DNA of 34,847 nucleotides from NCBI GenBank assembly GCA_031290375.1, contig JAITNR010000020.1:1-34847 (forward strand). The letters run 5' to 3'. Under the pieces are notes generated by a model. That model made no database searches. It had not been told where the DNA came from and worked only from the letters and a program-made list of their open reading frames with translations. The DNA comes from Prevotellaceae bacterium (lineage in GTDB: Bacteria > Bacteroidota > Bacteroidia > Bacteroidales > Paludibacteraceae). Below, one piece after another: positions 10,697 through 34,847 of the stretch; the stretch's first letter is position 1; every line of letters begins with the position of its first letter. Made by a program: the position numbers and the translations under genes.

Positions 10697-10862
10697 GTTG
10701 TTTTTCTACGACTCACTACGCTTTATTTTGAGAGTTTTACCGAAGACGAACTTCGCCGTTTTGGATACAGCAAAGACAACAAATTCAATCAGGAACAGGT
10801 TTTGCTGGCACTGCTGGTAACCGATAAGGATTTGCCTGTTGGCTGCGACCTTTTCAGGTAAA
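10697..10862 (+). pseudogene. Decayed DDE transposase fragment (IS1634/IS4-superfamily-like)
   Basis: FYD then, after a frameshift, TTLYFESFTEDELRRFGYSKDNKFNQEQVLLALLVTDKDLPVGCDLFR*, resembling the DDE core of IS1634-like transposases. No intact ORF. Confidence 0.7.
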
Positions 10863-10889
10863 TTAGCACCTCAAAAAAAAGATTTAGCC
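10863..10889 (+). repeat. Dispersed motif TTAGCACCTCAAAAAAAAGATTTAGCC
   Basis: Near-identical reverse complement at 15688-15712 and a variant at 5282-5304 (GTGCCTCCAAAAAAGATTTAGCAG). Confidence 0.6.
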
Positions 10890-10944
10890 AATTTAATTCT
10901 GTTTTTTACAAAATTAATTTTAACTTTGCAAAAAAAAGTACAAA

Positions 10945-11664
10945 ATGACAAAAGCGTCAAAAAAACTTGTTCAAAGGGTTGGAAACCGCAATCGTAAAAT
11001 CAAAATTCACAAGGAGGGAAAAACAATTTTAATTTCACTTTTTATTTTTCTTGTGGGAATTAATTTAATTTTTCACTTTTGGACCTCGTGGGGAGTGGGT
11101 TTTATCGTCAATTTTATTGTTTCTGTAGTAGCGTTTTGCTTTTTCCTTTTCTTTTTCAGAAATCCGTACAGGCTGACCAATATTGATGATGACAGTTTTG
11201 TGGTCGCCCCAGCTGACGGTCGGATAGTGGCAATCGAACTAACCGAAGAATGCGAATATTTTGAAGGCAAAAAAATGATACAGGTGTCGATTTTTATGTC
11301 TGTCTTTTCGGTTCACGCCAACTGGTATCCCATCAACGGCATCGTAAAATACACTAAGCACCACAACGGCAAGCATTTGGTAGCCTATTTGCCTAAGTCA
11401 AGCCACGAAAACGAGCACTCTTCCACCGTAATAGAAACCAAAACGGGCAAGCAGATACTTGTCAGGCAGATTGCGGGTACTTTGGCTCGGAGGATTGTTA
11501 CTTACGCCTCTGTTAATCATCCGGCACAAGTCAATCATCATCTTGGCTTTATCAAGTTTGGTTCACGGGTGGATATGTTTTTGCCCGAAGATTCGGAAAT
11601 CTTTGTTCGTATGAGCGAAAGCACAAAAGGCAACGAAACAATTATAGCAAAGTTGCCTGATTAA
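10945..11664 (+). CDS. psd: Phosphatidylserine decarboxylase
   Basis: FFRNPYR, VSIFMSVFSVHANWYPINGIV, and LGFIKFGSRVDMFLP with a GS autocleavage site. TAACTTTG -7-like element at 10921-10928. Confidence 0.93.
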   Translation: MTKASKKLVQRVGNRNRKIKIHKEGKTILISLFIFLVGINLIFHFWTSWGVGFIVNFIVSVVAFCFFLFFFRNPYRLTNIDDDSFVVAPADGRIVAIELTEECEYFEGKKMIQVSIFMSVFSVHANWYPINGIVKYTKHHNGKHLVAYLPKSSHENEHSSTVIETKTGKQILVRQIAGTLARRIVTYASVNHPAQVNHHLGFIKFGSRVDMFLPEDSEIFVRMSESTKGNETIIAKLPD

Positions 11665-11705
11665 TTTCATTTTTTAAAATAATATAATATTATATCAACA
11701 AAATT

Positions 11706-13001
11706 ATGAGAGTCAGATTAATAATAATGAATTTTCTGCAATTCGCAGTTTGGGGAGCGTATTTAACCTCAATGGGTTCGTATTTGGCTTCGGCTGGTAT
11801 GGGCACGAAAATCGGTTTTTTTTACTCAATGCAGGGAATTGTTTCGCTGCTGATGCCTGCACTGATGGGCATTGTGGCTGACAGGTGGATACCTGCGCAA
11901 AAACTTTTGGGTATTTGCCACGCACTTTCCGCAATGTTTATGTTTTTTGCGGGCTATTATGCGTTGGGAGCAGGAGACGCGGTGCAATTTTCAACGCTCT
12001 TTACATATTATTCGCTTAGCGTGGGGTTTTATATGCCCACCATCGCCCTGTCCAATTCGGTGGCATACAGTGTGTTAAACAAAGCAGGACTGGAAACGGT
12101 AAAACACTTTCCGCCAATTCGCGTCTTTGGCACCGTCGGATTTATTGTTGCAATGCTTGCGGTGAATTTTATCACCTCAAAGGGAATTGCCATTCAGCAT
12201 ACGCCAATCCAGTTTCTTGTTTCGGGCGATATTGGTTTAGTGCTGGCTATTTACGCTTTTACCCTGCCAAAATGTAACATAGACAAATCAAACAGAAAAC
12301 GTTCATTGTCTGAAGTGCTTGGGCTAAATGCTTTCGCACTTTTCAAACGCAAAAAAATGGCAATTTTCTTTATCTTTTCGATGCTTTTGGGGGCATCGCT
12401 GCAAATTACCAACGGCTATGCAAATCCTTTTATTACAGGGTTTTCCGAAGTAAAAGAATTTGCTCAAACCTGGGGGGCACAAAACGCAAACGCTTTGATT
12501 TCCCTCTCGCAAATTTCGGAAACGCTCTGTATTTTGCTCATACCATTTTTTCTTAAAAAATTTGGCATAAAAAAAGTTATGCTTATGTCGATGTTTGCGT
12601 GGGTTTTGCGTTTCGGCTTTTTCGGCTTGGGCAACCCCGGTAACAATGTTTGGCTTTTTGTCCTTTCAATGATTGTTTATGGCATTGCGTTTGACTTCTT
12701 CAATATTTCAGGCTCGCTTTTTGTGGACAGGGAGACTGATACCTCCATACGTTCGAGTGCCCAGGGACTGTTTATGATGATGACTAACGGTTTTGGAGCT
12801 ACCATCGGAATGTTGGGGGCACAGTCGGTTGCAAATCGTTTTGTCTATTCGCAGACAGACCCGCTGGCGAAGATTGAAGGGTGGCAGACGGCTTGGTTTA
12901 TTTTTGCCCTTTACGCTCTTGTGGTCGGCATCGCATTTGCATTTATTTTTAAATATAAGCACGATTCCAATAACGGTGGAGAATTGAGAGTGGAGAGTTG
13001 A
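11706..13001 (+). CDS. Nucleoside permease, MFS (NupG/XapB-type)
   Basis: MRVRLIIMNFLQFAVWGAYLTSMGSYL, polytopic protein, NGFGATIGMLGAQ. Confidence 0.88.
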   Translation: MRVRLIIMNFLQFAVWGAYLTSMGSYLASAGMGTKIGFFYSMQGIVSLLMPALMGIVADRWIPAQKLLGICHALSAMFMFFAGYYALGAGDAVQFSTLFTYYSLSVGFYMPTIALSNSVAYSVLNKAGLETVKHFPPIRVFGTVGFIVAMLAVNFITSKGIAIQHTPIQFLVSGDIGLVLAIYAFTLPKCNIDKSNRKRSLSEVLGLNAFALFKRKKMAIFFIFSMLLGASLQITNGYANPFITGFSEVKEFAQTWGAQNANALISLSQISETLCILLIPFFLKKFGIKKVMLMSMFAWVLRFGFFGLGNPGNNVWLFVLSMIVYGIAFDFFNISGSLFVDRETDTSIRSSAQGLFMMMTNGFGATIGMLGAQSVANRFVYSQTDPLAKIEGWQTAWFIFALYALVVGIAFAFIFKYKHDSNNGGELRVES

Positions 13002-25064: not shown

Positions 25065-25096
25065 TTTGATAGAATCAAAAAAAAGTATTATCTTTG
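25065..25096 (+). promoter_or_regulatory. Bacteroidetes-type promoter for the B12 locus
   Basis: TTTG (25065-25068), 20 bp spacer, TATCTTTG (25089-25096). Confidence 0.82.
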
Positions 25097-25101
25097 TGCC
25101 G

Positions 25102-25270
25102 ACTTAGGTTCAAGTTGCTTTAAATGCAAAGCAATTGACTAACAGGGAATTCCGTGAAAATCGGAGACAGTCGCGCTGCTGTAAACTTCAAAAAAAAATT
25201 TTTGAACTGCAAACCACTGCTAAAAGCGGGAAGGGAACAAAAACGAAGTGAGTCAGAAGACCTGCCTGAG
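25102..25270 (+). promoter_or_regulatory. Cobalamin (adenosylcobalamin) riboswitch
   Basis: ttaggttc...aacaGGGAAttcCGTGAAAATCggaGACAGtcGCGctgCTGTAA...CCACTGctaaaagCGGGAAGGgaac...gAGTCAGAAGACCTGCCtgag, the B12-box and flanking conserved blocks in the right order. Confidence 0.95.
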
Positions 25271-25315
25271 TAATTATTAACACTTAAAAGCCCTCGCGAA
25301 AATGGGTTAAAAGGT

Positions 25316-27352
25316 ATGTTCAAAAAGGGATTTCGCCTAAATTTATTTGTTTTTCTGCTACTTTTTGCAGATAGCTTCGTGGTCTTTTCTCGGGAAAACA
25401 ACGACAGTATTACGGCACATAACCTTGAACAACTGCAAGTTACAGCCAAAAGAAGTATCAATGAGATAATCCCGTCCCAAAAACTTTCGGGAAAGCAATT
25501 GGAGGCACTTAACAGTTTTTCTGTTGCCGATGCAATTCGTTATTTTTCAGGGGTACAAATCAAGGATTACGGTGGTATCGGCGGACTGAAAACAGTAGAT
25601 ATTCGCAGCATGGGAACCAACCATATGGGTGTGTTCTATGACGGCATTCAATTGGGTAATGCTCAGAACGGACAAATTGATTTGGGCAAATTTTCGTTAG
25701 ACAACATCGAAGAAATTTCCCTGTACAACGGACAAAAAAGCGAAATTTTTCAATCTGCCAAAGACTTCGGTTCGGCAGGGACAATTTATCTGTACACACG
25801 GCGTCCCCGTTTTACTGACGGAAAGAAAGCCAATATCAAAGCCTTTTTCCGCACAGGTTCTTTCGACTTCGTAAATCCTTCTGTCCTCTGGGAACAGAAA
25901 ATCAGCAAAAATATCAGTTCCTCATTCAGTACCGAATATATTTATTCTTCAGGGAAATATAAATTTCGCTATCGCAAAAGGCTTCAGGACGGAACGGTGG
26001 CATGGGATACAACCGCCGTCCGACAAAATGGGGATATTCACGCCATGCGTTTGGAAGGCGGTTTTAACGGTTTGGTAGAACAGGGTAAATGGAACACCAA
26101 AGCCTATTTTTATAATTCGGAAAAGGGAATACCCGGTCCTATTGTCAATAACGTATGGAAACGTTCGCAACGGCAATGGGACAGAAATTTTTTCGTACAA
26201 GGCAGTTTTCAAAAACAACTGTTCAAGGGGTATGATATATTATTTAACATGAAATATGCCAGTGATTTGATGCGTTACCTCAATCCTGATACAACTTTGA
26301 TGTATATTGACAATACTTTCCGCCAGCAAGAAATTTATGCCTCGCTTGCCAACAGATATTCTATACTTCCGCAATGGGATGTGAACCTGTCAGCCGATTA
26401 TCAATGGAATATTTTAGATGCCAACCTAAAGGACTTTGTTTATCCGCAGCGAAATACGGTTTTGGTAGCTTTGGCTACGGCTTTTGAATGGAAACGATTG
26501 AAAATGCAGGCAAGCCTTTTGGGTACATTCGTTTCTGAAAATGCAAAGAAAGGAGGGAAAACGCCGGATGACAGGCAAAAATATACGCCTGCTGTTTTTC
26601 TTTCATACCAACCTTTCAAACAACACCGTTTCAATATACGGGCGTTCTACAAACGTATTTTCAGAATGCCTACTTTCAATGATTTATACTACACTGATAT
26701 AGGCAATATTGCCCTCCGCCCCGAATATACCACGCAATATAATCTCGGATTTCAGTATAATAAAGATTTTAACAGAGGTATAATCAGCAGTTTGAATTTC
26801 CGTGCCGATGCCTATTACAATGAAGTAACGGACAAAATTGTTGCCATTCCCAAAGGTAGCGGACAATACCGTTGGATGATGATGAATATTGGATATGTGG
26901 AAATCAGGGGAATAGATGTGTCGGGACAAATGCAATGTAAATTGCCTTACAAAATAAAATTAAATATCAGCCTGAATTATACCCATCAAAAAGCACAGGA
27001 TTTCAGCAAAAAAGGAGAATGGTGGGCAGGGCAAATCGCCTATATTCCATGGCACAACGGCTCGGCTATCGTAAATATGATTTGGAAATCGTGGGATTTG
27101 AATTACAGCTTTATCTATGTCGGCGAACGCTATCACAATTCAGCCAACATCCGTGAAAACTACGAACAACCTTGGTACACACACGATTTGACATTTGGGA
27201 AAACATTCAAATGGCGCACCAGCAAAGGGATTAATCCCCTTATCAAACTCTCGGCAGAAGTAAATAACATTCTCAATCAACAATATGACGTAGTGTTGAA
27301 TTACCCGATGCCGGGACGTAATTATAAACTGATTTTAAAAATAGAAGTATGA
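25316..27352 (+). CDS. btuB: BtuB-like TonB-dependent receptor (copy 1)
   Basis: Plug domain (SVADAIRYFSGVQIKDYGGIGGLKTVDIRSMGTNHMGVFYDGIQLGNAQNGQIDLG), barrel, C-terminal NILNQQYDVVLNYPMPGRNYKLILKIEV. Directly downstream of the cobalamin riboswitch. Confidence 0.93.
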   Translation: MFKKGFRLNLFVFLLLFADSFVVFSRENNDSITAHNLEQLQVTAKRSINEIIPSQKLSGKQLEALNSFSVADAIRYFSGVQIKDYGGIGGLKTVDIRSMGTNHMGVFYDGIQLGNAQNGQIDLGKFSLDNIEEISLYNGQKSEIFQSAKDFGSAGTIYLYTRRPRFTDGKKANIKAFFRTGSFDFVNPSVLWEQKISKNISSSFSTEYIYSSGKYKFRYRKRLQDGTVAWDTTAVRQNGDIHAMRLEGGFNGLVEQGKWNTKAYFYNSEKGIPGPIVNNVWKRSQRQWDRNFFVQGSFQKQLFKGYDILFNMKYASDLMRYLNPDTTLMYIDNTFRQQEIYASLANRYSILPQWDVNLSADYQWNILDANLKDFVYPQRNTVLVALATAFEWKRLKMQASLLGTFVSENAKKGGKTPDDRQKYTPAVFLSYQPFKQHRFNIRAFYKRIFRMPTFNDLYYTDIGNIALRPEYTTQYNLGFQYNKDFNRGIISSLNFRADAYYNEVTDKIVAIPKGSGQYRWMMMNIGYVEIRGIDVSGQMQCKLPYKIKLNISLNYTHQKAQDFSKKGEWWAGQIAYIPWHNGSAIVNMIWKSWDLNYSFIYVGERYHNSANIRENYEQPWYTHDLTFGKTFKWRTSKGINPLIKLSAEVNNILNQQYDVVLNYPMPGRNYKLILKIEV

Positions 27353-28491
27353 ACAGACAGACTTTTTTATTTATGATTGTCGGGCTGTGCCTTTGTTTGG
27401 TTGCCTGCCGCAAAGAAAGTGAAATTTTTCAGCCTGAAGTTGTTACGGTAGATGTTCCCGAATATACTTCTATTCAGGGATTCTATCTGCTCAACGAAGG
27501 AAATATGGGCAGCAACAAATCCACTTTGGATTACTTCGATTACGAAACGGGCGAATATCACCGCAATATTTTTGCCGCTGCCAATCCTGCTGTTCCCAAA
27601 GAGTTGGGCGATGTGGGCAATGACATTGAAATCTACGGAGGCAAACTCTATGCCGTTATTAATTGTTCCAACAAGGTGGAAGTGATGGACAAGTACACCG
27701 CCAAGCGATTGGGACAGATAAACATTCCGAATTGTCGATATATCCGTTTCCATAAGGGATATGCCTACGTTACTTCGTATGCGGGACCGGTGGAAATCAA
27801 TCCAAACTATACACAGCAGGGTTATATAGCTAAGGTGGATACGGCTACTTTTCAGATTATAGACCGCTGTTTGGTGGGCTTTCAGCCTGACGAACTGGAG
27901 ATTGTGGGCAACAAAATCTACGTTGCCAATTCGGGCGGATATATGGCACCAAACTATGAAAGTACCGTTTCGGTGATTGACATACCATCTTTTACCGAAA
28001 CAAAACAGATTGAAGTAGCCCGAAACCTGCACCGCCTGCGTGCAGACAGGCATGGCACGCTATGGGTTACATCGCGGGGCGATTATCAGAGTCAGCCCTC
28101 GCGTCTGTATTACGTAGATTTGCAAACGGAAACATTGACCGATTCGATAGACATTGCCGTTTCCAACTTCCATTTGGATGGTGATTTGCTTTACCTCTAC
28201 AGCGTAGAATGGAGTTATGTCAGTATGTCGAACGTGGTTACTTACGGCATCGTAGATGTGGCACAGAAAACGGTTGTTACCCGCAACTTCATTACCGATG
28301 GAACAGAGCAACAAATTACCGTTCCTTATGGCATTATGGTTAATCCCTTGACAAAGGATATTTACGTTACGGATGCAACGGATTATGTATCACCCGGAAC
28401 GCTTTACTGTTTCGACAGGGAAGGCAAACAAAAATGGAACGTGAGGACAGGAGATATTCCTGCGCATTTTGTGTTACTCGGAAAATATTAA
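27349..28491 (+). CDS. BtuG-like surface lipoprotein, YncE-type beta-propeller (copy 1)
   Basis: Lipobox LVAC. IQGFYLLNEGNMGSNKSTLDYFDYETGEY..., YVANSGGY, VSVIDIPSFTETKQIEV. ATGA overlap with btuB. Confidence 0.87.
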   Translation: MNRQTFLFMIVGLCLCLVACRKESEIFQPEVVTVDVPEYTSIQGFYLLNEGNMGSNKSTLDYFDYETGEYHRNIFAAANPAVPKELGDVGNDIEIYGGKLYAVINCSNKVEVMDKYTAKRLGQINIPNCRYIRFHKGYAYVTSYAGPVEINPNYTQQGYIAKVDTATFQIIDRCLVGFQPDELEIVGNKIYVANSGGYMAPNYESTVSVIDIPSFTETKQIEVARNLHRLRADRHGTLWVTSRGDYQSQPSRLYYVDLQTETLTDSIDIAVSNFHLDGDLLYLYSVEWSYVSMSNVVTYGIVDVAQKTVVTRNFITDGTEQQITVPYGIMVNPLTKDIYVTDATDYVSPGTLYCFDREGKQKWNVRTGDIPAHFVLLGKY

Positions 28492-28524
28492 ATAATGGAA
28501 AATTTAGTACAAAGAATAAAAAGA

Positions 28525-29778
28525 ATGAAAAAGACTGTTGTTACAGCACTGATTGTGCTTATTAATGTATTTTATGGGATTGCAGGTCATACTTCGGCTT
28601 TGTTCAGTAACCAAGTTGACAATGATGACAGGGACATATCGCCTTACATATACAAGGTGTACGATTTTATGCCCGCTCCCGGACAATTTGTCAATACATT
28701 GCCGAAATATCTACAGGGCGATACCCGCGAAACTATGATTATCAAGGCTGAAACAGCCATCGCCAACGATAATCGGGGTACCATTTCACTCGGCGGATAT
28801 GGCGGATACGTTGTCTTTGGGTTCGACCACGAAGTGAAAAACATTCCAGGAAAATATGATTTCAAAATTCTGGGAAACGCCTTTTTCTCCAACTCGAACA
28901 CTAACCCGGAGGCTCCAAGAGAAGGAGGAAACTGTGAACCGGGCATTGTCATGGTGTCGTATGACGCCAACAACAATGGCATTCCCGATGATGAATGGTA
29001 TGAACTGGCAGGAAGTGAATATCACAGACCTGAAACCATCCACAACTATGAAATCACCTATTACAAACCCGATGAAAACAAAGATAAAACTCCCGACCCG
29101 AATTATCCTTTTCTGAATGATACCACTTATATCAGATGGACAAGTAATCAGGGAGATTACGGCTACGTATCTCGCAATACCTATCACTCCCAACCCTACT
29201 ATCCGCAATGGATAACCGCCGAAACCATCGTGTTTGAAGGAGCTAAACTCGCCAATAATTACATTGACGAAAGCGGAACAGGCTCTTATTACGTGCAATA
29301 CGCCTACGATTGGGGATATGCCGATAATTACCCGAACAGCCACAAACGTTCCGGTTTCAACATCGAATGGGCAGTGGATTCAGACGGCAATTGTATGAAC
29401 TTGCCCGGTATCCATTTTGTGAAAGTTTATACAGGCGTAAATCAATACTGTGGCTGGCTGGGCGAAACAAGTACCGAAATTTTGGGGGCTGAAGACCTGC
29501 ATCTGACAGACGGAGACGAAGATGTTGAAGATGGTGCAACCGCCATAGAACCGCTACAGGCTGAGAAATCAATTGTATTACTTCAAAATCCTGTTACGCA
29601 GCAGTTGTTCATTGCCTCCGCCGAACAGCAAAAGGCAGATGTGTATAATCTTATGGGCAACAAGGTGATGACTTTTCAGTTGCAAAGCGGAACAAATCAT
29701 ATTGCCTGCAACCTATTGCAAGGGCTTTATGTACTTGTGGTAGATAATCAAACAATAAAATTTATCAAAAAAAAATAA
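28525..29778 (+). CDS. Surface protein of the B12 locus with T9SS C-terminal sorting domain (function unassigned)
   Basis: Likely start MKKTVVTALIVLINVFYG. SPYIYKVYDFMPAPGQFVNTLPKY...GGYGGYVVFGFDHEVKN...GIVMVSYDANNNGIPDDEWYELAGSEYH. C-terminus IVLLQNPVTQQLFIAS...VYNLMGNKV...LLQGLYVLVV..KFIKK. Confidence 0.78.
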   Translation: MKKTVVTALIVLINVFYGIAGHTSALFSNQVDNDDRDISPYIYKVYDFMPAPGQFVNTLPKYLQGDTRETMIIKAETAIANDNRGTISLGGYGGYVVFGFDHEVKNIPGKYDFKILGNAFFSNSNTNPEAPREGGNCEPGIVMVSYDANNNGIPDDEWYELAGSEYHRPETIHNYEITYYKPDENKDKTPDPNYPFLNDTTYIRWTSNQGDYGYVSRNTYHSQPYYPQWITAETIVFEGAKLANNYIDESGTGSYYVQYAYDWGYADNYPNSHKRSGFNIEWAVDSDGNCMNLPGIHFVKVYTGVNQYCGWLGETSTEILGAEDLHLTDGDEDVEDGATAIEPLQAEKSIVLLQNPVTQQLFIASAEQQKADVYNLMGNKVMTFQLQSGTNHIACNLLQGLYVLVVDNQTIKFIKKK

Positions 29779-29802
29779 TATTAATTAAATCAAAAAAAAG
29801 TT

Positions 29803-31140
29803 ATGAGAAAAGAAAACAGTTTCAAGGCATTGTTGTTAGTAATGATGACGGTGACGGTCAACAATCTATTTGCCCTTCCGGGTGATACGATTATATTGAA
29901 TTTAAATCAACCTACCAATCCCGAATCAATTGCGTTTGATGCGCAAAATGGATATTGGACAGGTACTTTTGACACCAATTATCCGATTATCGAATTTGGT
30001 GATTTCGCTTTTTCCCATTCGGGATCGGGCGGTTATTGGAACGGATTTACTGTGTCCAACAGTGGTGATAACACCGATTACGGCAATGGCGGCAATGCCA
30101 GTTGGGTACCTTATCAATGGGGCTGTATGGCAGGCGGCGGTATCAAAACCGATGCTTCAGGCAAAGTTGTCAAAGATGCCTCAGGCAAGGTGGAAACAGA
30201 ACAGGGAATTCCCTATTTAGTGGCTTATTGGGGTTACTTTATGGAAAGCGATGAAGACCATTCTCTTCAAACTATTCTTTATAATAGCTATGAAGCTGTC
30301 GGCGTATATGTAAACAATCACCCCTGGCCCTACTACGGCAATATCAGTGGCGATGGTTTTGCCCGTCCTTTTGTGGAGGGGGACTACTTAAAACTGTTTA
30401 TACACGGCTTGAACGAGGACTATGAAAGTAACGGTTTGGTGGTGGAATACACTTTGGCTGAATTTACAAACGGACAACTCATAGAAAGTCCTGACTGGGA
30501 ATGGATAGATTTGAGCAGTCTGGGAACGATTTCAGGTTTTTATTACACAATGGAATCGACCGATGGTTCGGAGTGGGGTCCCAATACAGCTGTTTATTTC
30601 TGTTTGGACAAATTGCAGGTTCGCCAGCCCAATACACCTCCTTCAATACCGACCGATTTGCAGGCTGTGGCAACGAAAACCACGATAGCCTTTTCGTGGA
30701 CAGCATCAACAGACGATGGTCAGATAACAGGTTATCAGGTATATTTGGATGATCAATTAGTTGAAACGGTTACCGAAACATCTTATCTGTTTGAAGGGCT
30801 TATTCCGAATACATCTTACGAATTGGGAGTTGTTGCTATTGACAATGCTAATGCGTTATCGGGGAAAGCAACAATTACGCAATCTACGTTAAATACTGTA
30901 TGGATTTCTTCTGTTATCGGAGATAAAGTTGTGGTATATCCCAATCCGTTTATCGATTACATAGTGGTAAATATTGACAGTGACAGTGAGGCGCATCCTC
31001 TTGTTATATCCGACATATCGGGTAAAACAGTGTTGAGTGTAGATGTAACCGCCGGTGCTAATTGCATTAACACCTCGACATTGGAAAAAGGCGTTTATCT
31101 TGTGCGATACGGTTTGAATACTGCAAAAGTGGTTAAATAA
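29803..31140 (+). CDS. DUF4465/BtuH-like protein with Fn3-like domain and T9SS sorting domain
   Basis: GSGGYWNGFTVSNSGDNTDYGN...YLVAYWGY...VGVYVNNHPWPYYGNISGDGFARPF..GDYLKLFIHG...WEWIDLSSLG. Fn3-like PPSIPTDLQAVATKTTIAFSWTAS. C-terminus VVVYPNPFIDYIVV...GKTVLSVDV...GVYLVRYGLNTAKVVK. Confidence 0.84.
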   Translation: MRKENSFKALLLVMMTVTVNNLFALPGDTIILNLNQPTNPESIAFDAQNGYWTGTFDTNYPIIEFGDFAFSHSGSGGYWNGFTVSNSGDNTDYGNGGNASWVPYQWGCMAGGGIKTDASGKVVKDASGKVETEQGIPYLVAYWGYFMESDEDHSLQTILYNSYEAVGVYVNNHPWPYYGNISGDGFARPFVEGDYLKLFIHGLNEDYESNGLVVEYTLAEFTNGQLIESPDWEWIDLSSLGTISGFYYTMESTDGSEWGPNTAVYFCLDKLQVRQPNTPPSIPTDLQAVATKTTIAFSWTASTDDGQITGYQVYLDDQLVETVTETSYLFEGLIPNTSYELGVVAIDNANALSGKATITQSTLNTVWISSVIGDKVVVYPNPFIDYIVVNIDSDSEAHPLVISDISGKTVLSVDVTAGANCINTSTLEKGVYLVRYGLNTAKVVK

Positions 31141-31173
31141 ATTGAGAATTAAGGGCAAAACCCTTACAGCATT

Positions 31174-31200
31174 AGGGTAGGGTATGGTAGTACCCTACCT
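31174..31200. other. Intercistronic inverted repeat between the btuH-like gene and btuB copy 2
   Basis: GGTAGGGTA-TGGTAG-TACCCTACC (9-bp stem), preceded by AAGGG-CAAAA-CCCTT. No U-tract follows. Confidence 0.6.
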
Positions 31201-31229
31201 GATAGCTGTTGGTTATTAACTGTTCTTTT

Positions 31230-33236
31230 ATGTTAAAGAAAAGAATTTGTTTAAATTTAGTTGTTTTTGTACTGCTTTTTGCAGATAGTTGTGTGGTTTT
31301 TTCTCAGGCAAACAACGACAGTGTTGTGATATATAGCCTTGAAGAACTGCAAGTTACAGGCAAAAAAAGTGTCAATGAGATAATCCCGCCGCAAAAGCTT
31401 TCGGGTGATATGCTCAAAAACCTTGCTTCGGAATCAGTTGCTGATGCGGTGCGTTTTTTTGCGGGCGTACAAATCAAGGATTACGGCGGCATCGGCGGCA
31501 TAAAAACCATCAATGTACGCTCGATGGGTACAACTCAAATCGGCGTTTTCTATGACGGAGTTCAACTTGGCAACGCACAAAACGGTCAAGTGGATTTGGG
31601 ACGCTTTTCGCTTGATAACATTGAGAGCATATACATCTACAACGGGCAAAAGTCCGCTCCCTTGCAGTCGGCAAAGGATTATGTTTCGTCGGGCACAATT
31701 TATATTAATACTCTTCTGCCTCAATTTTCTGAAAACAAGAATTTTAACTTTACCACAAGGGTAAAAACAGGTTCGTTTGGGTTGATAAATCCGTCAATTC
31801 TTTGGCAGCAGAAAATCAGTAAAAACCTGAAATCTTCGTTCAGCACTGAATTTACCAACGCCAACGGCAAATATCGTTTTGCCTTGACCAATCCTATGAC
31901 TAATACAGATACCGTTCTAATGAGGCAAAATACCGACATCACCGCTCTTAGAACGGAAGGTTCGCTCTTCGGCAATTTCACCGGTGGTGAGTGGATATTT
32001 CAGATTTACAACTTCAATTCTCAGCGAGGATTGCCGGGATATATTGCCCGTAATCTCTATGTCAGTCACGAACGTCAGTGGGATAACAACTTTTTTGTGC
32101 AGGGTAGCATCAAAAAATATTACAGCAAACATTCCCATGTTTTTAGGGCAAAATATGCAAATGACTACACTCATTATACGCAAAACCCTGCCAACCCAAA
32201 TTTAGTCGGTAATTATTATCGACAACAGGAAATTTATTTCTCTTTTGCCAACGCATATCGTCCGATAAATATTTTGGATTTTTCGTTATCGGTTGATTAT
32301 CAATTTAACAAATTAGATGCGAATTTGAGAGAGTTTGTTTTTCCTCAACGTAACTCGCTTTGGGGTGCTTTTGCTACCTCTTTGAAGTTATCCAAATTCA
32401 AGGCGATGGCTTCACTTTCGGCTGTTTATGCAAAAGATAAGTTGAAACAGAACGCTTCGGGCGGCAAAAAACTTGAGTTTTCACCTGCCGTTATGGCTAC
32501 TTACTCGCCGTTCAAACATTTTCCTTTGAGTTTCAGAGGGTTTTACAAGAAGTCATTTAGAATGCCTGCCTTTAATGATTTGTATTACACTATAAGTCAA
32601 CAGTTTTCACATCTAAAACCCGAATTTGTATCTCAATATGATTGTGGAGTAGAATATATTTTAAAAAAAGAGGGTAAAATAATTAAAAACCTCAATATTT
32701 TAGCCGATTTTTATTATAATGATGTTAAAGACAAGATAACAATCGTGCCTACTTCAAGTGCGTTTCGCTGGCAGATGATGAACTTGGGCATAGTTAAGAT
32801 TTTTGGTGTTGATTTTTCGTCTGATATATTTTTGGCTTTATATAAAAATTTGAATTTGAATATTTTAGTTAATTATTCATATCAAAATGCAAGAGATTTT
32901 ACCGACAAAACCGACTATTTTTACGGAGACTTAATTCCATATTCGCCCAAACACAGTATTACGGCGGTGGCAAATCTACAATACAAATCCTGGCGACTGA
33001 ACTACTGCTTTCTCTATACGGGCGAACGATATTCTGCAAAGGCAAATTTGGAAGAAAATCGTATCCGTCCGTTTCAAACGCATGATGTTTCGGCAGGTTA
33101 TGTTTTTGAGTTGAAGAAAATGAAATTAACTGTAAATCTTGATATTAACAATGTTTCCAATCAACAGTATCAGGTGGTATTGAACTATCCTATGCCGGGC
33201 ACGAGTTTTAAAGTTGGGATAACGGCTGAGTACTGA
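31230..33236 (+). CDS. BtuB-like TonB-dependent receptor (copy 2)
   Basis: MLKKRICLNLVVFVLLFADSCVVFSQ aligns with copy 1 (MFKKGFRLNLFVFLLLFADSFVVFSR). Same VQIKDYGGIGGIKTINVRSMGTTQIGVFYDGVQLGNAQNGQVDLG plug and VVLNYPMPGTSFKVGITAEY C-terminus. Confidence 0.9.
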   Translation: MLKKRICLNLVVFVLLFADSCVVFSQANNDSVVIYSLEELQVTGKKSVNEIIPPQKLSGDMLKNLASESVADAVRFFAGVQIKDYGGIGGIKTINVRSMGTTQIGVFYDGVQLGNAQNGQVDLGRFSLDNIESIYIYNGQKSAPLQSAKDYVSSGTIYINTLLPQFSENKNFNFTTRVKTGSFGLINPSILWQQKISKNLKSSFSTEFTNANGKYRFALTNPMTNTDTVLMRQNTDITALRTEGSLFGNFTGGEWIFQIYNFNSQRGLPGYIARNLYVSHERQWDNNFFVQGSIKKYYSKHSHVFRAKYANDYTHYTQNPANPNLVGNYYRQQEIYFSFANAYRPINILDFSLSVDYQFNKLDANLREFVFPQRNSLWGAFATSLKLSKFKAMASLSAVYAKDKLKQNASGGKKLEFSPAVMATYSPFKHFPLSFRGFYKKSFRMPAFNDLYYTISQQFSHLKPEFVSQYDCGVEYILKKEGKIIKNLNILADFYYNDVKDKITIVPTSSAFRWQMMNLGIVKIFGVDFSSDIFLALYKNLNLNILVNYSYQNARDFTDKTDYFYGDLIPYSPKHSITAVANLQYKSWRLNYCFLYTGERYSAKANLEENRIRPFQTHDVSAGYVFELKKMKLTVNLDINNVSNQQYQVVLNYPMPGTSFKVGITAEY

Positions 33237-33427
33237 ACGCAAAAGCAGAAACAGTGAATAACTAATAGTGAACAATAAAATGCAATTACGAATTACGCAC
33301 AACTAATTACGTACAGCGGACTACGAACAACGCTCTAAAAGTCCCGTCATCCCTCGCCGCTGAGAACGTTCCGACATGTAAATTATTTTTTTATCAATAA
33401 TATTAACTAATTTTTTAAAGTATCTTT

Positions 33428-34549
33428 ATGAAGAAATTGTATTTTTTATCAGTGATGTCAGCTGCTCTTTTGTTTGGCAGTTGTAACCCGGACAAACCTG
33501 TTATTCCCCCGGGTGGTGAACCTGTCGACAACCAAATTACAGGGTTTTACCTTTTGAATGAAGGAGCTATGGGGTCGAACAACGCAAGGCTTGATTTCTA
33601 CGATTACCAGAAGGCAGTGTTTAGCAGAAACATTTTTCCTGCGGTAAATCCCGAAGTTACAGGCGGACTTGGTGATGTAGGCAACGATTTGAAAATCTAT
33701 GGCAGTCGCCTCTATGCAGTTATCAACGCCTCAAATCTGGTTGAGGTGATGGATGCCAAAACGGCTAAGCACATCGGCGTAATTTCTGTAACAAATTGCA
33801 GAAGTATAGCGTTTGACGGAGGCAAAGCGTATGTTTCGTCCTTCGCAGGATCGGTGTACGGAGCTTCGCAAATCGGCTACGTTGCCGAAGTGGATACGGC
33901 TTCCCTACAGGTTTTACGGACTGTAAATGTTGGACACGAACCGGAAGAGATGGAGGTAATGAACGGAAAACTCTATGTGGTAAATTCGGGCGGCTACAAC
34001 CCTCCCGCTTACGACAATTCGGTTTCAGTAATTGATATTTCGTCTTTTACAGAAACAGGGAAAATTGATGTAGCAGTAAATTTGCTTAACCTTAGAAAAG
34101 ATGCTCATAACAATCTTTTTGCTTTGGGTCGTGGTGATTACAGTGCCGTTCAGCCCGATATTTACAAAATCAATACGCAAACAAATGCAGTTGAAAAAAT
34201 CAACGTTCCTTATGCTTCAAATTTCTGTGTTTCAGGTGATTCGCTGTTTATTTTGAGTAACAACACCGACTACTCAAGTGGCACAGCAGTTACTGTTGCA
34301 AAGTTTGTGATTTACAACACTCAAAGTAAGCAAGTTATGACGGAAAACTTTATTACTGACACTTCTGATGCTCAGATAAGTCTGTCATACGGAATTGCCG
34401 TTAATTCAATTACAAAGGAGATTTTCATAACCGATGTCAAAGATTATGTTTCTCCCGGAACGCTGTTCTGTTTTTCGCTGGAAGGCAGCAAAAAATGGAG
34501 CGTTATGACTGATGTTATTCCCTCAAAAATTGCTTTTTTGTGGAAATAG
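33428..34549 (+). CDS. BtuG-like surface lipoprotein, YncE-type beta-propeller (copy 2)
   Basis: Lipobox FGSC. ITGFYLLNEGAMGSNNARLDFYDYQ...GGLGDVGNDLKIYGSRLYAVINASNLVEVMDAKTAKH, parallel to copy 1. Confidence 0.86.
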   Translation: MKKLYFLSVMSAALLFGSCNPDKPVIPPGGEPVDNQITGFYLLNEGAMGSNNARLDFYDYQKAVFSRNIFPAVNPEVTGGLGDVGNDLKIYGSRLYAVINASNLVEVMDAKTAKHIGVISVTNCRSIAFDGGKAYVSSFAGSVYGASQIGYVAEVDTASLQVLRTVNVGHEPEEMEVMNGKLYVVNSGGYNPPAYDNSVSVIDISSFTETGKIDVAVNLLNLRKDAHNNLFALGRGDYSAVQPDIYKINTQTNAVEKINVPYASNFCVSGDSLFILSNNTDYSSGTAVTVAKFVIYNTQSKQVMTENFITDTSDAQISLSYGIAVNSITKEIFITDVKDYVSPGTLFCFSLEGSKKWSVMTDVIPSKIAFLWK

Positions 34550-34572: not shown

Positions 34573-34599
34573 TTTTGAATATCAGGATGATATTCAAAA
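34573..34599. repeat. Perfect 12-bp inverted repeat downstream of btuG copy 2
   Basis: TTTTGAATATCA-GGA-TGATATTCAAAA. Confidence 0.8.
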
Positions 34600-34659
34600 G
34601 TGTTAGCCATTAAAAAAGGGTAGTACCGCAAGTACTACCCTTTTTTAATGGCTAACACT
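34599..34659. terminator. Perfect 28-bp inverted repeat with 5-nt loop, likely strong bidirectional terminator
   Basis: AGTGTTAGCCATTAAAAAAGGGTAGTAC-CGCAA-GTACTACCCTTTTTTAATGGCTAACACT. Confidence 0.85.
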
Positions 34660-34751: not shown

Positions 34752-34847
34752 GTGAAAACAAGAGAAAAATTTACAGGAGTGAATTCAATAGAATTTTATA
34801 AACGCTTTCAAAGCGATGAGGATTGCTACAAATATATTGCCAACATA
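34752..34847 (+). mobile_element. 5' end of an IS1595-like transposase gene (truncated by the window)
   Basis: MKTREKFTGVNSIEFYKRFQSDEDCYKYIANI... resembles the N-terminus of Bacteroidetes IS1595-family transposases. GTG start. Confidence 0.6.

Follow-up and report, generated by a model that had tools for sequence, protein, structure and literature searches.

The window analysed here, the 34,847-nucleotide contig JAITNR010000020.1 of a Prevotellaceae bacterium, carries a vitamin B12 (cobalamin) acquisition operon on its plus strand. In this operon, which starts at position 25065 and ends at 34549, a promoter and a cobalamin riboswitch are followed by genes for BtuB-a, BtuG-a, open reading frame (ORF) 3, ORF4, BtuB-b and BtuG-b. 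The two BtuB–BtuG pairs belong to different lineages. ORF3 and ORF4 are BtuH and BtuJ, respectively, and both appear, from their terminal sequences, to reach the cell exterior through the type IX secretion system (T9SS) and not as lipoproteins. It is highly probable that a cobalamin-repressed operon for B12 capture at the outer membrane, with the export, hand-over and cassette history proposed below, accounts for these features as one explanation. The identification of a B12 acquisition operon, made from sequence comparison, is the secure part of this account. An earlier reading of the sequence alone (hereafter the sequence-only reading) had described a riboswitch-led B12 locus, and its gene order and the coordinates of the six ORFs and the riboswitch were all confirmed; the riboswitch matches RF00174 with 95.2 bits, and all six proteins fall into B12 families. 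The six genes are as follows.

25316..27352, + strand: BtuB-a, TonB-dependent B12 transporter, BtuB1-like (8blw_A, E = 1.4e-130; Pfam plug and barrel; tree)
27349..28491, + strand: BtuG-a, surface lipoprotein beta-propeller (DUF5074; lipobox LVAC; 8ptf, 6e-47; 8blw_B, 1.3e-46)
28495..29778 (likely start 28525), + strand: BtuH (ORF3), with signal peptide, H-domain and T9SS type A tail (8blw_B, 7biz, AlphaFold, Foldseek, TIGR04183)
29803..31140, + strand: BtuJ (ORF4), with signal peptide, DUF4465, fn3 and T9SS type A tail (PF14717, 91 bits; 4jqr, 9hmu, 9fct, 9qpm)
31209..33236 (likelier ATG at 31230), + strand: BtuB-b, second B12 transporter, genus-native lineage (8blw_A, E = 1e-125; tree; same-genus orthologues)
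33428..34549, + strand: BtuG-b, second surface lipoprotein (lipobox FGSC; 8blw_B, 8.3e-44; tree)

The window comes from a gut-type Bacteroidales metagenome-assembled genome (MAG; 2.19 Mb, 86% complete, 273 contigs, 3.4% contamination), the nearest relatives of which are Bacteroidales, and the left 25 kb of the window is ordinary chromosome. The MAG (G000) was probed by family searches, and approximately 100 related loci (L numbers), from genomes designated by G numbers, served as the comparison set.

Both BtuBs are nearest to BtuB1 of Bacteroides thetaiotaomicron (8blw_A) and both BtuGs to the propeller (G-domain) of BtuG1, with E values indicating homology far above chance. In each pair, a BtuB1-type transporter thus adjoins a BtuG propeller lipoprotein, as the sequence-only reading had proposed, and alignment with 8blw_A places a Trp in the EL8 region of both BtuBs. 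In a phylogeny, both TonB receptors group among BtuB homologues, and a cobalamin riboswitch was found at 23 of the 24 relatives' btuB loci scanned, L194 being the sole locus in which none was detected. A non-corrinoid receptor identity is not supported by the BtuB1 matches, the tree placement or the riboswitches at the relatives' loci.

The sequence-only reading had regarded the second pair as an internal receptor duplication, and this interpretation was not borne out. A recent tandem duplication of one pair within the operon, after which the copies diverged towards different corrinoids, would fit the presence of two adjacent pairs (BtuB-a and BtuB-b are 49% identical and BtuG-a and BtuG-b 46%) and the 5′ end shared by the two btuB genes, but is the least credible of the explanations considered, since approximately unbiased (AU) tests reject the sister pairing of both the BtuBs (p-AU = 1.15e-5, in a tree with the N-termini removed) and the BtuGs (p-AU = 2.35e-13). 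The pairs belong instead to two older lineages. BtuB-b groups with proteins encoded at separate loci in same-genus genomes (L186, L188 and L189) and in a member of the same family (L190), and L189 also holds a BtuG-b orthologue. Pair a lies outside this genus group: BtuB-a falls among loci from other families, and its body is 79% identical to that of L053 (Candidatus Symbiothrix). The shared 5′ end, which is better explained by recombination, is confined to the following segment.

25316..25489, + strand: first 58 codons of btuB-a, native-lineage 5′ end (82% nucleotide identity to btuB-b versus 55% elsewhere)

Third codon positions are identical between btuB-a and btuB-b in 47 of these 58 codons, compared with 208 of the remaining 605 (p = 5e-12). 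The corresponding N-terminal segment of BtuB-a is likewise of the b lineage, reading AKRSINEIIP versus GKKSVNEIIP in BtuB-b, whereas relatives of the a lineage have, for example, ANRYKEVIP, which is one residue shorter. The window riboswitch is also nearest to the leaders of the same-genus btuB-b loci L189, L186 and L188 (71, 67 and 64% identity, respectively). The assignment of the promoter, the riboswitch, the btuB 5′ end, btuB-b and btuG-b to the genus's native locus is therefore well supported by sequence comparison. Because the riboswitch and approximately the first 58 codons of btuB-a are of native type, the body of btuB-a, together with btuG-a, btuH and btuJ, apparently represents an incoming cassette of another BtuB lineage that came under the native switch. 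Joining of the B12 loci of two organisms in a chimeric contig would be consistent with the 3.4% contamination of the MAG and with the change of lineage on either side of position 31140. Such an artefact is nevertheless very improbable, because the lineages are interleaved (native 5′ end, cassette, native pair b), leaving no single join point, and the GC content is fairly even.

Pairs of different lineages are also stacked in two of the approximately 100 other loci, namely L077 (Muribaculaceae) and L044 (G059), in the latter of which one of the BtuGs carries a fused H-domain. This recurrence, and the different accessory partners of the two divergent lineages, would fit the idea that both lineages are kept for separate jobs, with pair a taking B12 from BtuH and BtuJ and pair b taking free or other cobamides, an idea that is compatible with any origin of the operon. 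However, both pairs are nearest to the same BtuB1–BtuG1 structure, and B. thetaiotaomicron BtuG2 binds a variety of corrinoids (PMC10404256). Different corrinoid targets for the two pairs are possible, and separate jobs for the two lineages are a tentative proposal that is less likely than not.

The domains of the two proteins encoded between the pairs are as follows.

28621..29505, + strand: predicted B12-binding H-domain of BtuH (homology; seven of eight BtuH2 ligand residues identical)
29584..29772, + strand: T9SS type A sorting tail of BtuH (TIGR04183, 28.8 bits)
30028..30612, + strand: predicted B12-binding DUF4465 jelly roll of BtuJ, HI-loop motif NTAVYF (alignment and fold match)
30934..31128, + strand: T9SS type A sorting tail of BtuJ (TIGR04183, 36.3 bits)

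ORF3, previously labelled an unknown T9SS protein, is a true BtuH according to its homology and modelled fold, and B12 binding is predicted. It matches the fused H-domain of B. thetaiotaomicron BtuG1 (8blw_B residues 387–661; E = 1.5e-77) and BtuH2 (7biz; E = 3.3e-49), and its AlphaFold model, with a predicted local distance difference test (pLDDT) score of 88, gives the same two structures as top Foldseek matches (E = 2e-32 and 1.6e-26, respectively). BtuH2 contacts B12 through Q333, N399, F401, H476, Y510, W511, W577 and L578 (PMC8941943). These residues were placed on ORF3 via the 7biz alignment, in which adding 100 to the alignment numbering locates all eight; identical residues were found at Q64, N128, F130, H231, Y265, W321 and L322, and W511 is replaced by Y266. 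ORF3 shares an operon with btuB, as do >80% of the known BtuH homologues. It has no lipoprotein anchor (there is no Cys near the signal peptide, and a T9SS tail is present instead), but this anchor is typical of characterised BtuH proteins and not defining.

ORF4, previously called BtuH-like, contains DUF4465 (PF14717, cut-off 25 bits) and is therefore BtuJ in the naming of PMC12751083; B12 binding is again predicted. Its AlphaFold model has the augmented jelly roll and matches 4jqr, 9hmu, 9qpm and BtuJ1 (9fct). The HI-loop sequence NTAVYF aligns to NTPSYF of BtuJ1, with conservation of the N, the T and the B12-binding Tyr, the last of which is 97% conserved.

The N-termini of both proteins read as signal peptides without a lipobox, and both tails score above the TIGR04183 cut-off of 23 bits. 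The two T9SS-tailed accessory proteins and the mixed surface anchoring (lipoprotein BtuGs, T9SS-tailed BtuH and BtuJ) described in the sequence-only reading therefore stand. The MAG encodes SprA, the translocon component examined (2877 bits), and 31 T9SS tails above the cut-off. BtuH proteins in the related loci occur in two forms: 51 have no extension after the H-domain and mostly possess an immunoglobulin (Ig)-like N-terminus and a lipobox, and 49 consist of a signal peptide and the H-domain followed by at least 40 residues. TIGR04183 matches were obtained for 23 of the 49 tail-form proteins scanned (including the window protein) versus none of the 12 lipoprotein-form proteins scanned, and for 16 of the 24 DUF4465 proteins scanned. 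In these related proteins, the tail stands in place of the Ig-lipoprotein N-terminus. The BtuH form also follows the BtuB tree, with 25 of 26 being tail-type in the BtuB-a clade, 45 of 45 lacking a tail in the other large clade, and five changes in total. T9SS-tailed BtuH is thus apparently widespread in Bacteroidales and tracks the BtuB lineage. It is unlikely that the tails are not working T9SS signals and that the proteins are periplasmic or simply secreted; the score of the BtuH tail, one bit short of the Pfam cut-off, would agree with such a view, but SprA, the 31 tails in the genome, the replacement of the Ig-lipoprotein N-terminus and the recurrence of the tail in relatives argue against it and for export of both proteins by the T9SS.

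Fusions of the H-domain and DUF4465, with fn3 domains, were found in L053 (4401–6926, 841 aa) and in L080 (7926–10283; Bacteroidales MAG RUG12580, 785 aa), which supports joint action of the two domains. In L035 and L036 (G077 and G182), both BtuH forms occur at one locus: a lipoprotein copy of the Ig type and, adjoining DUF4465, a copy with the T9SS tail. T9SS tails on DUF4465 proteins are already known, a T9SS-type C-terminal motif (IPR026444) having been counted in 229 of 824 DUF4465/IPR027828 members (PMC12751083, PMC13398666); for such tails on BtuH, no published report was found in a search that lacked most subscription papers, by which absence is not proven.

The regulatory elements at the head of the operon are as follows.

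25065..25096, + strand: putative Bacteroidota-type promoter, TTTG-N20-TATCTTTG (pattern search)
25089..25283, + strand: cobalamin riboswitch aptamer, RF00174 (gathering threshold 31.5 bits)
25171..25175, + strand: riboswitch loop L5 (UCGCG), proposed kissing-loop half (sequence, compared with 24 other riboswitches)
25289..25308, + strand: P13 hairpin with loop UCGCGA just 5′ of the btuB-a start, proposed expression platform (fold and comparison)

The promoter pattern has six plus-strand matches in the window versus 0.8 expected in shuffled sequences; the call is weak alone but lies directly ahead of the riboswitch. This riboswitch is the only RF00174 copy found in the MAG, and no second riboswitch was detected within the operon, even at a relaxed threshold. 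L5 is complementary to CGCGA of the P13 loop ahead of the start codon. Among the 25 riboswitches compared, the combination of L5 UCGCG with the P13 loop CUCGCGA was found only in the window, L188 and L189, and the others mostly combine L5 CCCG with CGNGG-type P13 loops. In the same-genus locus L188, a solitary gene for a DUF4465 lipoprotein (10736–11863) lies behind a cobalamin riboswitch downstream of the BtuB-b orthologue, with no adjoining BtuG or BtuH gene.

In the proposed mechanism, the operon would be expressed when B12 is scarce, and bound B12 would dock L5 onto the P13 loop, blocking initiation at btuB-a by translational control. BtuH and BtuJ would cross the outer membrane via the T9SS and shed their tails, ending on the surface, on vesicles or in released form, where they may hold B12 and hand it to BtuG. 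By analogy with B. thetaiotaomicron, for which high-affinity capture by BtuG, BtuH and BtuJ and EL8-driven transfer have been described, closing of the BtuG lid and loop EL8 of BtuB would then push B12 into BtuB. The cell would spend it on MetH and methylmalonyl-CoA mutase, both of which are encoded in the MAG. No CbiC was found in the MAG by family search.

Several points weigh against this account. The BtuH tail is just over the NCBIfam cut-off. ORF4 has a Trp at the position of the DE-loop residue Tyr146, as does 4jqr, although Tyr146 is supporting and not strictly defining. The order of the insertion events is deduced from identity patterns alone, and a donor of the cassette is presumed. 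A FecCD permease (inner-membrane BtuCD) was not found in the MAG by family search; this absence probably reflects incompleteness, because a FecCD protein is present in three of five same-genus genomes. Neither a FecCD nor a BtuB match was found in G263, a 94% complete genome of the same genus. A more far-reaching extension, in which BtuH and BtuJ act as detachable extracellular B12 carriers recharging one receptor lineage, the second lineage takes free or different cobamides, and receptor lineage and accessory export route co-evolved, is considered rather doubtful.

Two further structures were identified in the window.

31175..31200, + strand: intergenic hairpin with an 11-bp stem within the 69 bp that separate btuJ from btuB-b (fold), a possible processing or attenuation site
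34599..34659, no strand assigned: perfect 28-bp inverted repeat with a 5-nt loop directly 3′ of btuG-b (fold and repeat search), which could represent a terminator or the end of an element

An ORF of 32 aa that starts at 34752 and runs off the contig end has no Pfam match, and no confirmation was obtained for reading it as an insertion-sequence transposase. Scans of the window for consensus sigma-70 promoters and terminators gave nothing above chance.

Gut communities are shaped by competition for B12, and the known Bacteroides model depends on lipoproteins. Since the same B12-binding modules are T9SS-tailed, apparently in many Bacteroidales and in linkage with the receptor lineage, the mode of anchoring becomes a factor that can be tested in B12 delivery to BtuG. 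The locus also illustrates how a foreign capture cassette can land under a resident riboswitch. Both the widespread, receptor-lineage-linked T9SS-tailed BtuH and the foreign cassette under a native riboswitch are moderately surprising.

The closest known system is operon 1 of B. thetaiotaomicron (BtuB1, BtuG1/BtuGH and BtuJ1 = BT1491), which shares with the window the same families in the same order, the cobalamin riboswitch, the BtuG lipoprotein, the H-domain and the DUF4465 protein. In operon 1, BtuG1 carries the H-domain as a fusion and every accessory protein is a lipoprotein, whereas in the window the H-domain is separate and T9SS-tailed, BtuH and BtuJ are rerouted from a lipid anchor to the T9SS, and an extra BtuB–BtuG pair of another lineage lies at the 3′ side. 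Because both halves of BtuGH bind cobalamin independently, a split BtuG and BtuH is functionally plausible. BtuH2 (7biz; PMC8941943) has the H-domain fold and seven of eight B12-contacting residues in common with ORF3, but is a lipoprotein in which three N-terminal PKD domains precede a C-terminal H-domain, whereas in ORF3 the H-domain is preceded by a signal peptide alone and followed by the T9SS tail. BtuJ1 and BtuJ2 (9fct and 9i2l; PMC12751083, PMC13398666) share the domain and the HI-loop N, T and Y with ORF4, but are lipoproteins, and ORF4 has an additional fn3 domain and the T9SS tail. The BtuB–BtuG–BtuH–BtuJ gene order recurs in many Bacteroidales, including loci with T9SS-tailed BtuH such as L053, L054 (Paludibacter) and L046 (G193); in L053, BtuH and BtuJ form one fused protein, and in none of these three loci was a second BtuB–BtuG pair seen, unlike in the window.

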